Source: Salipiger thiooxidans (GTDB lineage Bacteria; Pseudomonadota; Alphaproteobacteria; Rhodobacterales; Rhodobacteraceae). Taken from it: a stretch of 64,000 bases of DNA. Under the pieces are notes generated by a model, which was given only the letters and a program-made list of their open reading frames with translations, made no database searches and had not been told where the DNA came from. Shown here piece by piece: positions 1-43,510 of the stretch (position 1 is its first letter; each line of letters begins with the position of its first letter). The position numbers and the translations under genes were made by a program. The stretch covers positions 1 to 64,000 of the forward strand of contig NZ_FNAV01000005.1 in assembly GCF_900102075.1 (NCBI RefSeq). The letters are read 5' to 3'.

Positions 1-382
1 AAGTCGGGCACCGTCCAGTCAAGGCCGACCAGTCGCAGCAGACTTTCGACGAACCCGGTTGTCTGCCGGAGCGCCATGCCGAACAAAACCTTCATCGAAA
101 GGCACGTCTGGATAGCGGCATCGCTGTAGGTCTGCTGTCGGCCACGCCGGCCTGTCGCCGCGCCATCCCAGCTCATCTCAGGGTCGAACCAACCTCTCGT
201 GACATTGCTGCGCAATGCACTGCCGGTCAGTGGATCGTCAGCGAACCCCGGCGCTTGAGCGCTTCGTTATAGGCTGGCCAGTTCCTGGTCCTGTAGGTCG
301 CGGGTATGGGTCTGCTCATGCATCCCGGCTACCACGCTGGATTCACGAGATGAATCACTCACGCGATTTGTGCAACAGAGCC
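1..382 (-). mobile_element. IS5-family insertion sequence remnant (copy A), cut by window edge
   Basis: The terminal repeat (GATTTGTGCAACAGAGCC reading on +, at 365-382) marks one end of the element; the same end occurs at 42,083 and 43,186-43,203. Translating the minus strand gives the N-terminal part of an IS5-family DDE transposase: AYNEALKRRGSLTI, then, after an insertion, WFDPEMSWDGAATGRRGRQQ, and LVGLDWTVPDF at the left edge. The gene is interrupted between LTI and WFDP by a 41-nt hairpin insert (192-232) that breaks the frame. The rest of the element lies outside the window, so whether the copy is otherwise whole cannot be judged. Confidence 0.85.
192..232 (+). repeat. 41-nt hairpin mini-element, copy A (inside IS5 transposase)
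   Basis: Begins ACCTCTCG, then a hairpin with arms GTG-A-CATTGC and GCAATG-CAC around loop TGC, then TGCCGGTCAGTG, followed directly by GATC of the target. Removing 192-232 rejoins the transposase codons for LTI and WFDP in frame. Six further copies of the same design lie at 13,171, 40,710, 42,233, 42,391, 42,886 and 42,967. Confidence 0.85.
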
Positions 383-13048: not shown

Positions 13049-13468
13049 AAGGGATTCATCTCTTGAATTCAGCATGTTAGCTGGGCTGCATGAGCAGCCC
13101 CCCGGGCTACAAGACCGGGAACCGGCCGGCCTGTAATGCAGCGCTGAAGCGCCGGGGCTCGCTGACGATCCGTTGACCGACAGGGCATTCCAAAGGAATC
13201 TCCCGAGAGGTTGGTTCGACCCCGAGATGAGCTGGGATGCCGTGCCGACAGGCGGGCGTGGCCGTCAGCGGACCTACAGCGACTCCGCCAATCAGACTGC
13301 CTTTCGATGAAAGCGCTGTTCAGCATGGTGCTCCGCCAGACGACCGGCCTAGTCGAGAGCCTGTTGCGGCTGGTCGGCCTCGCCTGGGCGGTGCCCGACT
13401 TCAGCACGCTGAGCCGACGCCAGAAGGCGCTGGCAGTAAACATCCCGTATCGAGGGTCGAAAGGCCCG
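13049..13468 (+). mobile_element. IS5-family remnant (copy B), both ends lost
   Basis: The region aligns with the element at 42,083: the leader GATTCATCTCTTGAATTCAG, then transposase KTGNRPACNAALKRRGSLTI, a 41-nt hairpin insert (13,171-13,211), WFDPEMSWD, and further on SMKALFSMVLRQTTGLVES and LAVNIPYRGSKGPL. There is a one-base frameshift near 13,300. The left terminal repeat is missing and the right part is cut at about 13,468, where it joins directly to a broken PP2C gene, so the element or a deletion it caused removed the phosphatase's C-terminal end. Confidence 0.8.
13171..13211 (-). repeat. 41-nt hairpin mini-element, copy B
   Basis: Read on minus: ACCTCTCG, hairpin arms GGG-A-GATTCC and GGAATG-CCC with loop TTT, then TGTCGGTCAACG, followed by GATC. 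It sits at the same transposase codon as copies A and C1 (between LTI and WFDP), but its hairpin arms differ from theirs at paired positions, so pairing is kept. Confidence 0.85.
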
Positions 13469-14087
13469 CTGGTCCGCACCACCACGGGCGAGAGGTGATC
13501 GTGCACGCCGTCGGTCGAGCGCAGGAAGACGTCGCCCACGACCACCGGCAGGCGGCGGTAGTCGATCTCGACCGAGGCCCCGGTGCCGAGCGCGCGGGCG
13601 AGGTAGCTGCGGTCGCCGGGCAGGGGTGACGCGGTGATCCTCGGTGAGGGGCTCTGGGCCGGCGGCGCTCAGGCGGCTGACGCGGCTGTCGCCCACGTGC
13701 AGCACATGCGCCTCGCCGCCCTTCAGAATCAGCGTCGAAGGGTGCAGACATGGCCCGCGTCCATGTCCTCGAGCGCGCGGTTGCGCCCGCTGAGCCAGGC
13801 GTTGGTTGCTGCGATCACCCGGGTGGCGGCGGTGCGCACGGTCCAGCTGTCGGGGGGGCGTAGTCGTCGGTCAGGAGCGACTTCACCGCGAGCTCGGCGG
13901 CCTCGGCGCTCACCGGTGACGACGAGATGCCGTCGGCCACCGCCAGCGTGTCTCCCTTGAGCGCCAGACCCTGGCCCCGGGGGACCGGCGCGCCGTGGAA
14001 ATCCTGGTTCTCCGGCTTGCGCCCGGCCAAGGAATGCTGGTCGATCGACACGCGCAGCGTGGCGGGGGCAAAGGTGTCCTTCGGCAT
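13469..14087 (-). pseudogene. PP2C-type protein phosphatase, frameshifted and truncated
   Basis: The start at 14,087 gives FAPATLRVSIDQHSLAGRK, PENQDF and GDTLAVADGISSSPVSAEAA: the PP2C metal-binding NQDxF and DGxGG-like motifs. The reading then jumps frame near 13,855 (PDSWTVRTAATRVIAATN), again near 13,740 (LHVGDSRVSRLSAAGPEPLT) and again near 13,590 (VVGDVFLRSTDGVHDHL), before running into IS5 sequence. Relatives beside nitrate/nitrite genes are bifunctional kinase/phosphatases; the kinase part is absent here. Clearly inactive. Confidence 0.8.
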
Positions 14088-40309: not shown

Positions 40310-40840
40310 CTGAGGTCAGGCCACGCGTTCGATCTCGGCTGCCGGAGGCCCTCGAGGTGATCCGCTGGCCGAAGGATTTCGGGGTCCTCATCCGGGCCTC
40401 GACCCGGCTGCGGACATGACAGCGGGACCACCTTTTCCAGATCGCCCGGACGAGGCGCCGGGTTGCCCTCAGGATATCGTGGCGGACCAAGGCGGCGGGG
40501 CAATATTCTTTCCAGAGGCGGCGATTTCTGCGGATCAGAGCGGCGGCATGACTGCCCCCCGGTCCGAAGGAATGCTGAGCCCCTGTGCCACCGCGCGCGA
40601 GGATCGCCGCATGGCAACGGCGGGTGTTGAAGGCGCCATCACCGGCAACGGTGCCGATGTCCTCGCCTTCCGGGATCTGGTCCAGAAGATCAGGGTGCAA
40701 GGGCCTGTCCACTGCCCGACAGTGGTTTGCGCAGCACAACCACGAGAGGGGCCCTCGCGGCTAGATGTGAATTCCAACGCCCGGATTTCGCCGGTCGCCG
40801 TGTCTTCTGGGCGAACGCTGCCGATTCGCGGCGTGATACG
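40310..40840 (-). pseudogene. IS5-family transposase remnant (different subgroup), with hairpin insert
   Basis: The minus strand encodes TGEIRALEFTSSREG, a 41-nt insert (40,710-40,750), then PLHPDLLDQIPEGEDIGTVA and GDGAFNTRRCHAAILARGG, a damaged stretch, then LWKEYCPAALVRHDILRATR, RLVRAIWKRWSRCHVRSRVE and ARMRTPKSFGQRI. This is the catalytic part of an IS5-family transposase, but its WKEYCPAA and CHVRSRVEARMR segments differ from copies A to C, so it is another subgroup. Both ends and the N-terminal half are missing. Confidence 0.8.
40710..40750 (-). repeat. 41-nt hairpin mini-element, copy G (in a second IS5 subgroup)
   Basis: Read on minus: CCCTCTCG, hairpin arms GTGGTT and AACCAC with a one-base bulge higher up and loop TGC, then TGTCGGGCAGTG, followed by GAC. 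Removing it rejoins the transposase codons EG and DRPLHP in frame, as in intact relatives. Confidence 0.85.
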
Positions 40841-42079: not shown

Positions 42080-42232
42080 GAGGGCTCTTTTGCACGAATC
42101 GCGTGAGCGATTCATCTTGTGAATCGAGTATGCTAGCTGGGTTCCATGAGCCAACCTACACCCCCAGCCTACAAGACCAGGAACTGCCCAGCTTACAATG
42201 ATGCGCTCAAGCGCCGTGGCTCTCTGACGATC

Positions 42233-42273
42233 CGTTGACCGGCAGTGCATTGCGCAGCAATGTCACGAGAGGT
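42233..42273 (-). repeat. 41-nt hairpin mini-element, copy C1
   Basis: Read on minus: ACCTCTCG, arms GTG-A-CATTGC and GCAATG-CAC, loop TGC, then TGCCGGTCAACG before GATC. Same site as copies A and B, between LTI and WFDP codons; removal restores LTIWFDP. Confidence 0.85.
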
Positions 42274-42390
42274 TGGTTTGACCCCGAGATGACTTGGGAT
42301 GCCACGCCGACTGGCAGGCGTGGCCGGCAACAGACCCTTGCCGTGAACATCCCCCATCGCGGCTCCAGGGGGCCGCTGCACCTGTTGATC

Positions 42391-42430
42391 CCTCTCGGGA
42401 CAGTGCTGCGCAATGCCCTGCGAGGCAGCG
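42391..42430 (+). repeat. 40-nt hairpin mini-element, copy D
   Basis: CCTCTCG, arms GGG-A-CAGTGC and GCAATG-CCC (one mismatch), loop TGC, tail TGCGAGGCAGCG before GATGG. It lies after the codons HLLI; intact relatives continue DSTGI. Here removal leaves the frame one base off, so a further small change has occurred. Confidence 0.78.
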
Positions 42431-42716
42431 GATGGACCGGAATCAGGATTGATGGCGAAGGCGAGTGGAACGCCCGCAAGCATGGCGGTCCCAAGCGGCG
42501 GGTCTGGCGCAAGATCCATCTCGGGATTGACGAGCAAACACTGGACGTCCGAGCCGTTGAAATCACAGGAAACCATATCGGCGACGCACCTGTTCTGCCC
42601 GATCTGCTCGGCCAGATCCCGGCGGATGAGCAGATCGGCAGCGTCGCCGCCGACGGTGCCTATGACACGCGCAAGTGCCACGACGCTCTCGCCGACCGTG
42701 GTGAGCATGCCGTGAA

Positions 42717-42782
42717 CCTCCCAGGGCTCCGCCCGTTCAGGGCTGAATTGATCCACCGGATCAATTCCAGGCCGCCCTTCAC
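42717..42782 (+). repeat. Second type of hairpin insert in IS copy C
   Basis: About 65 bp placed between the codons for HAV and PRRNARPW, which are adjacent in relatives. Its core is a perfect 10-bp hairpin, GAATTGATCC (42,745-42,754) and GGATCAATTC (42,758-42,767), around ACC. It is flanked by GGGCTCCGCCC on the left. It shares no ends with the 41-nt family. Confidence 0.7.
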
Positions 42783-42885
42783 CCCCGCAGGAACGCCAGG
42801 CCATGGAAGACTGTAACCGCTGGCGCGGTCGCACGAAACGAGGCACTGCGCGCATCGAAATACCTCGGTCGCGCCATCTGGCGAC

Positions 42886-42926
42886 CCCTCTCGGCAGCAT
42901 CCTGCGGATGCGCCTGCCGGGCAGTG
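42886..42926 (+). repeat. 41-nt hairpin mini-element, copy E
   Basis: CCCTCTCG, arms GGC-A-GCATCC and GGATGC-GCC (all pairs kept though most bases differ from the other copies), loop TGC, tail TGCCGGGCAGTG before GATGG. Removal rejoins GRAIWR and RWTGYHRRSRVE in frame. Confidence 0.86.
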
Positions 42927-42966
42927 GATGGACCGGATACCACCGCCGAAGCCGCGTCGAGACGAA

Positions 42967-43009
42967 ACCTCTCGGGACATTTCCTTCGGAAATACCCTGC
43001 CGGTCAGTG
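42967..43009 (+). repeat. 43-nt hairpin mini-element, copy F
   Basis: ACCTCTCG, arms GGG-A-CATTTCC and GGAAATA-CCC around TTC (could also fold as a UUCG tetraloop), tail TGCCGGTCAGTG before GATGC. Removal rejoins SRVETK and MHCMKLLG in frame. Confidence 0.86.
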
Positions 43010-43194
43010 GATGCACTGTATGAAACTGCTGGGCCAACGCCTCATGGCCCGGGATTGCGACCGTCAGGTTGCGGAAGTCCAAGTAAGAATCGCCGTCATG
43101 AACGGTTACACCGCGTTCGGCATACCCGTTCCTGTGGCCGTGGGATAATTCCGTCCGGGGAAAGGGGGGAGCCTGATCATCAGCCGATTTGTGC

Positions 43195-43510
43195 AACAGG
43201 GGCTGGTCTACATGTCAACTCCTCGCCAGCACCGGACGAAGCTGCACTCGACCAACACATTGGAAAGGTTTACTAAAGAGGTGAAGCGTCGCGCCGATGT
43301 CGTGGGCGTTCCGGCTTTCCTTCGGATCGGTTGCAGTCACGCCCTCACTCCCCAACGAGGCCTCAATCATGCGCCTGATCGGCGCGGTGCTCTTCGAACA
43401 GAATGACGAGTGGCAGACGGCAAGCCGCTACAGGATGGTCGGGGCCTTCGCCCGGATCGACAAGGAGGAACTCGACCCCATTCTCAGCATCACAACGAAA
43501 GTCGCCTGAT
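43195..43510 (+). pseudogene. IS256-family (mutator-type) transposase, C-terminal fragment
   Basis: The + strand reads LVYMSTPRQHRTKLHSTNTL, ERFTKEVKRRADVVG, then after a frameshift LIGAVLFEQNDEWQTASRYR and MVGAFARIDKEELDPILSIT. This is the C-terminal third of an IS256-family transposase, with the conserved HRTKLHSTN segment. The remainder and both IS ends are missing. It begins within the right end of IS copy C. Confidence 0.8.

Follow-up and report, generated by a model that had tools for sequence, protein, structure and literature searches.

Contig C32 of the Salipiger thiooxidans draft genome (5.87 Mb, 68 contigs) begins with the 64,000-nucleotide stretch analysed here (the window), in which hairpins of about 41 nt interrupt transposase genes of insertion sequences (ISs). 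The question raised by this locus is whether such small segments are ordinary sequence of decaying ISs or a mobile element in their own right and, if the latter, how they move. The family probably consists of mobile DNA hairpins, non-autonomous and for the most part 41 nt long, that live in ISs.

All seven copies that a first-pass annotation had read from the window are present, four on the plus strand and three on the minus strand, with the strands now added and one start moved from 42391 to 42390 (Table 1). Four of them do share one IS, as had been claimed, and in 236 codons this IS carries three other lesions (two frameshifts and one stop); the insertion at 42390 lies near what we take to be the first catalytic D of the transposase. 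The region around the decayed remnant that adjoins the 13171 copy has six frameshifts in 238 codons. By eye, the 13171 copy has a G-G mismatch within its stem and the 40710 copy a shifted bulge, the transposase match of the latter coming from the right flank alone.

Table 1. Hairpin elements and their host insertion sequences in the window, with the loci at which a further IS lies inside a hairpin
Feature	Position	Strand	Length	Context
IS5-family IS end	1..382	-		Remainder off contig; one of eight near-identical contig-end copies, all with the element
Hairpin element	192..232	+	41 nt	Antisense in IS5-family (ISPko1-like) transposase gene, codon 29/30; empty site L133
Hairpin element	13171..13211	-	41 nt	IS5 site as for 192-232, different stem (GATTCC type)
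Decayed IS5-family transposase remnant	13292..13648	+		Adjoins the 13171 element; three internal stops
Diverged IS5-family transposase remnant	40347..40712	-		Beside the 40710 element; 47% identity
Hairpin element	40710..40750	-	41 nt	Sense in diverged IS5-family transposase; codon 172 next
IS5-family IS with four elements	~42083..43204	+		Ends approximate, placed by eye
Hairpin element	42233..42273	-		Transposase codon 29/30; antisense
Hairpin element	42390..42430	+		Between codons 119 and 123; sense
Hairpin element	42886..42926	+		Between codons 251 and 253; sense
Hairpin element	42967..43009	+	43 nt	Between codons 264 and 266; sense
IS110-family IS inside hairpins				L317, L318, L323-L325, L328-L331, L055

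Fold, ends and copy number

The consensus of 60 copies is CCCTCTCGGGACATTGCTGCGCAATGCCCTGCCGGGCAGTG. A length of 41 nt is found in 200 of the 326 elements of the pooled set (range 31-45), and some of the shorter ones are interrupted by another IS. Counting 30-bp flanks, 306 of the pooled elements are distinct; six entries duplicate named loci, assembly G011 apparently being the source of L154 and L216. The ends are constant and the stems variable: of 227 copies, 212 yielded a stem string in a simple search and 15 did not, with 65 different strings in all, of which some are short or nested. A bulged A in the inner stem is nearly invariant. The ends given in the first-pass annotation are indeed conserved, but its start at CCTCTCG is one base late: the element begins N-CCTCTCG, and the additional base is paired. 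This base, N1, pairs with the variable x of CTGCCGGxCAG in 134 of 146 distinct 41-mers (102.7 expected). The next two pairs of the outer helix hardly vary and are hence uninformative on covariation, and the variable inner pairs lie far above shuffles on the same 146 sequences, positions 10-27, for example, pairing in 143 (85.3 expected). The predicted fold runs N-C-C, four bases, inner stem, four bases, G-G-N and then a CAGTG tail.

The paired changes on both arms, first noted in the window, hold in larger samples. Across 12 copies 94.4% of pair cells are paired versus 72.2% after shuffling, and across 60 diverse copies 96.9% versus 76.3%, none of 500 shuffles reaching the observed value in either set. 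RNA folding returns the covarying structure for the bottom strand in three of three copies and for the top strand in one of three, and folding with DNA parameters agrees with it in part (z-scores -1.1 to -1.8). Hairpins may self-correct to perfect palindromes through strand switching. Because this could give the same compensatory changes, the earlier statement that the fold is selected is reasonable and likely, but not proven.

A pattern of exact ends matches the genome 15 times, compared with zero matches for a reversed-pattern control. The covariance-model search that the first-pass annotation had proposed gives 80 matches in the genome at E ≤ 0.1 among the 150 best first-look candidates with a model of 12 copies, and 81 at the same threshold among the 150 best candidates with a model of 60, namely the former 80 and one copy ~100 bp from an IS3-type orfB. 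In G011 the 79 model matches listed do not cover five of the 19 exact tails, so that some copies or half-copies in that assembly escape the model. The set taken from three relatives holds 91 of the 117 matches listed (by genome 68 of 79, 15 of 15, 8 of 9 and 0 of 14). A scan of the window against Rfam at gathering scores gave no match, and another Rfam search gave rRNA and tRNA matches only.

Insertion sites, habitat and spread

ISPko1 of Paracoccus kondratievae encodes an intact 310-codon IS5-family transposase without the 41 nt, and its alignment with the carrier at C32:320914 is that of a clean 41-nt insertion with no target duplication. Comparison with empty sites, suggested in the first-pass annotation, succeeded for 207 of the 326 elements, for which an empty relative was found among the loci collected; no pair of copies differing solely by an insertion was found, and the nearest empty relative is 98% identical over 108 bp. 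Insertion takes place directly 5' of GA(T/C), without target duplication, in either orientation and in many IS families. Counted over 29 unique contexts in the genome, with a tail unconditioned by any search pattern, the next bases are GAT in 14, GAC in eight and others in seven, and C precedes the element in 17. Elements that start with C are preceded by C in 191 of 272 cases. Those that start with A are preceded by A in 36 of 36, with T at the pairing base x, and had led us to suspect a one-base target duplication, which we reject as the sole cause because the first base pairs inside the element and because C- and G-starting elements also occur at A sites. A MITE of a DDE transposon is likewise rejected, the ends of the consensus, compared by eye, not being mutual inverted repeats and the empty sites lacking a duplication. 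Insertion phases vary between sites, and most element lengths are not multiples of three. The common target comprises about five bases, insufficient alone to account for an IS-only habitat.

The element had been described as inserting into IS5 transposase genes. IS5 hosts are confirmed, an ISPko1-like transposase being found in a 400-bp flank of 62 of the 80 elements in the genome, but the description is too narrow: host families comprise IS3, IS5, IS21 (istA, istB), IS30, IS66, IS91, IS110, IS256, IS481, IS630 and IS1182, and the context of L148 is IS6-like by eye only. A count of copies inside and outside ISs, another proposed check, places 77 of the 80 within 50 bp of a transposase coding sequence, compared with 11 of 600 random C|GA(T/C) control sites in the window. 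Of the other three, one is in a Mutator-type (IS256) context by Pfam, one is by an IS481-like peptide recognized by eye and the flanks of the third recur around elements at the end of an IS110. This count and the wider ones drew on a panel of 25 transposase pieces, of which 20 came from element flanks. Eighteen or 19 of these pieces have Pfam support (one falls just below the cut-off) and five are assigned by annotation; NCBIfam names IS3, IS5, IS21, IS30, IS91, IS256 and IS481 in panel or similar pieces, some of these matches lying below whole-protein cut-offs, as expected for fragments. A panel transposase is found within 600 bp of 209 of 235 elements from the genome, 80 named loci and plasmids, and several of the 26 elements without one are IS3-like by eye. 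In the three relatives one is found near 77 of 91 elements, within 50 bp for 56. Two of the 26 stand apart: the element at L152 is probably outside any IS, and the low-scoring match in a flagellar-type gene of L144, an Ignavibacteria MAG, is probably due to chance.

Orientation relative to the transposase is balanced, with 110 sense and 99 antisense over copies in the wider set, 54 and 44 over 98 unique contexts, and 39 and 38 in the Salipiger genome, indicating a DNA-level process and arguing against ribosome bypass or splicing. In the IS110 case that was checked, the empty relative has the site beyond its coding sequence, suggesting that the habitat is the IS rather than a reading frame. At a single site within the end of an IS110-family IS, the hairpins found differ in their stems (L153, L168, L202, L209, L216 and C55:4519).

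Copies are common in related genomes, where their absence had been named in advance as evidence against the first-pass reading. Of 41 relatives screened at E ≤ 0.01, 22 carry matches; with the Salipiger genome itself counted, these comprise 19 of 20 members of the genus and 3 of 5 other family members, and none of the 16 genomes from beyond the family matches. An even sample of the order, again with this genome included, has matches at E ≤ 0.001 in 54 of its 121 genomes, representing 31 of 58 genera, with no more than 54 matches counted for any one genome. Scanning 84,980 species genomes with a pattern gave at least 112 stretches. Nearly all of the 80 loci among the matches listed bear names from genera that we take to belong to the Rhodobacterales, the exceptions among the matches listed being Cohaesibacter, Enemella, the Ignavibacteria MAG and two MAGs named only Alphaproteobacteria. 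At L185 (Enemella evansiae JAFKDC010000007.1) a consensus-like hairpin and two more matches lie beside an IS5-type transposase, on an actinobacterial contig, and perhaps reflect contamination or wide transfer. Matches were found in 107 of 72,556 plasmid records. Among 50,697 phage records there were two weak matches, extending over 64% and 55% of the query, and none that covered 80%. In IMG/VR, 46 stretches fit a loose pattern and 19 match the model at E ≤ 0.1; strong matches on contigs labelled viral include L278, L280 and L292. An element-like hairpin of 36.8 bits also lies in the 16S-23S spacer of G017 (L321:1499-1543), in four rrn copies, and may be either an old spacer hairpin or an inserted element.

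Carrier insertion sequences still multiply

Single ISs with four or five hairpins occur, and carrier ISs still multiply. Roseobacter litoralis (G113) has five copies of an IS3-family IS (~1.28 kb, 99.5-100% identical) with four hairpins each by the model and, by eye, a fifth in one copy. The end of orfB past the last hairpin is missing by eye, for which reason these copies probably moved in trans. In the Salipiger genome, eight contig-end copies of one IS5 subgroup occupy eight places and differ at no more than 4 of 251 bases, and the hairpin is present at codon 29/30 in all eight. One complete uninterrupted relative, the only one seen in the draft, is 75% identical.

The ratio dN/dS is 0.19-0.22 among three IS5 copies in which the same four sites are occupied, 0.07 for two element-free ISs and 0.55 for one close carrier pair. 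Among the 13 aligned copies that hold at least three hairpins, the median number of other lesions is three. The few lesions and the dN/dS values indicate either that sites were filled recently, in ISs that had worked until not long before, or that the hairpins are partly tolerated. Recent filling is the favoured reading for IS5 sites in the Salipiger genome, because elements at one site resemble one another far more closely than do their host ISs. Subtypes are linked to sites in this genome. Restricting the IS5 comparison to same-site pairs whose flanks are 60-90% alike leaves 280, of which 52 are of unequal length and 228 have a median of three mismatches. The 1386 different-site pairs comprise 466 of unequal length and 920 with a median of ten. 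The elements at window position 42886 and at C39:116078 are identical and their ISs stand at a dS of 1.34. The link between site and subtype is weaker outside this genome: at the named loci, the two elements of a same-site pair have unequal lengths in 42 of 74 cases, and the median number of mismatches in the remaining 32 is 4.5, versus eight between sites.

Some same-site pairs with flanks ~90% alike have entirely different stems, which points to repeated insertion or stem replacement. Flank identity peaks within 12 bases of the element, with a near-equal gradient in same-site pairs carrying different elements; gene conversion with long tracts is unsupported, the gradient being short and similar in such pairs. 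At C32:347240-347280 (L008) a single hairpin joins, by eye, flanks from two different IS5 sites, as would be left by recombination between two elements, indicating that elements can recombine.

Movement, rival readings and known systems

The family is probably a dedicated mobile hairpin confined to ISs. The core idea of the first-pass annotation, a minimal element parasitising ISs, is supported by the empty sites and by the copies in related genomes. We propose that a trans-acting enzyme would read the folded hairpin as single-strand DNA or RNA, recognizing the fixed ends, the bulged A and the outer N-C-C/G-G-N helix, and would join it to sites of the C|GA(T/C)G type. Recognition of the folded strand has an even chance in our estimation, and is favoured because ends, bulge and pairing are kept while the letters of the stem are free. 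HUH-like insertion chemistry is a tentative suggestion, and a first guess for the enzyme would be an HUH type other than Y1. The Y1 transposase family (PF01797) has no match in the Salipiger genome (G000, a draft 99.98% complete), on which ground a Y1/RAYT mobiliser is rejected; PF01797 is present in 5 of 25 genomes searched and in 2 of 16 of the genus. No mobilising gene was found. A longer element sharing these ends was not seen either; each of the 12 exact tail matches in the Salipiger genome falls in a hairpin already counted. The IS would serve as both habitat and vehicle: insertion there would be cheap for the cell, transposition of the IS would copy the hairpin, transfer of the IS would carry it between genera, and transposase provided in trans would mobilise carriers that are themselves defective, such as the five-hairpin IS3.

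The strongest rival is template switching or short-homology annealing between ISs, with no dedicated enzyme, which would use the shared C and GATG flanks and be helped by polymerase stalling at the hairpin. We consider it unlikely, although the youth of same-site copies relative to their hosts in the Salipiger genome, the peak of flank identity beside the element, the absence of target duplication and the failure to find a transposase are all consistent with it. The flank gradient is nearly equal for same-site pairs with different elements, the ends are fixed though the stems vary, and new sites in unrelated IS families and rarity elsewhere are left unexplained.

A second reading, that the hairpins are silent for the transposase, being excised from the mRNA or skipped during translation in the manner of byp elements or tiny introns, is very unlikely. 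The multiplication of carriers, the low number of other lesions in copies with three or more hairpins and a dN/dS well below 1 for the copies with the same four sites filled could all be explained in this way, yet that ratio exceeds the value for element-free ISs and is higher again in the close carrier pair. The differing phases and lengths mostly not multiples of three also speak against silent hairpins, as does the five-hairpin IS3, which multiplies though seemingly, by eye, without its orfB end. No matching take-off and landing codons were seen by eye at three sites, and bypass or splicing is rejected as the main reading on account of the balanced orientation.

Host-run tagging, in which the cell or a domesticated gene would insert hairpins and so silence transposable elements, deserves little credence: near-exclusive presence in ISs of many families and several hairpins per IS copy would suit it, but carriers go on multiplying and decayed ISs also hold several hairpins, the order of events being unclear.

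We regard as most improbable an unusual branch of the REP elements moved by a RAYT (Y1) transposase. Like REPs and REPINs, which are hairpins of 20-40 bp, the family is non-autonomous, high in copy number and variable in its stems, and it matches them in size and in having a single imperfect, bulged hairpin with compensatory changes. The two are also alike as IS targets, an IS110-family IS being found inside some of our hairpins and ISs being reported to target REPs (PMC1525189). REPs are described as carrying GTAG or CGTC tags and lying mainly between genes (PMC3733652), whereas the 60-copy consensus, inspected by eye, has neither tag, the Salipiger genome lacks PF01797 despite its 80 copies, and nearly all of these copies are at transposase coding sequences and not in intergenic DNA. 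A covarying outer pair around a conserved internal loop is a further difference.

That the hairpins are ordinary sequence of a degenerate IS family and not mobile, a reading the first-pass annotation had itself held out, agrees with the one IS5 subgroup in which eight of eight contig-end copies carry the element at one place, so that there it now counts as normal sequence and one part of that annotation's refuting condition applies, but has practically no probability given the empty relatives, which still show insertion, and the many unrelated host ISs.

In form and size the hairpin family resembles the tiny palindromic mobile repeats, from which it is set apart by its habitat, by its ends and by having no known transposase. 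Searches of the open-licence literature, which leaves out most subscription journals, turned up no account of such a family. The mitochondrial byp elements are short mobile hairpins in coding genes that are known only in the sense orientation and are skipped during translation, whereas our hairpins are found in either orientation. RmInt1 in ISRm2011-2 is a mobile intron that similarly uses ISs as its habitat; the hairpins are far smaller, with no space for such a ribozyme or reverse transcriptase, and occupy many IS families. The small dispersed repeats (SDRs) of cyanobacteria, reportedly described by Elhai et al. in 2008 (as cited in PMC3116915) and said to be 21-27 bp, are likewise very small mobile repeats with a conserved fold and empty sites; their sequence differs, and to our knowledge they are not IS-confined. 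The Rickettsia palindromic elements (RPEs) resemble the family in being palindromic, inside genes and in alphaproteobacteria, but are given as 105-146 bp and fused in frame within host genes (PMC2229807), whereas the hairpins are ~41 nt (31-45), mostly out of frame and in transposase genes.

The chances seem evenly balanced that the family is a new class of mobile DNA, a gene-less hyperparasite of ~41 nt that a site-selecting system would direct specifically to unrelated transposable elements and whose subtypes match individual sites in individual ISs. If so, it would be among the smallest known mobile elements, living inside other mobile elements, and would make it testable how a gene-less 41-nt hairpin moves, how ISs are told from the rest of the genome and whether hairpins restrain IS activity. 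It also accounts for many "broken" transposases in the Rhodobacterales, where annotators should be aware that IS copies contain foreign inserts.

The hairpins in turn contain a second layer. The IS110-family IS found within them is ~1.36 kb long and occurs in G017, G019 and one further relative. As these loci were fetched via matches to the hairpin model, so that hairpin-free copies may be missed and the count is biased, it is with this qualification that all ten of its right ends (seven distinct) are followed by the element remainder CGGGAC. Three of its four distinct left flanks end in CCCTCT and the fourth in CGCTCT, and this IS may use the hairpin family as its target.
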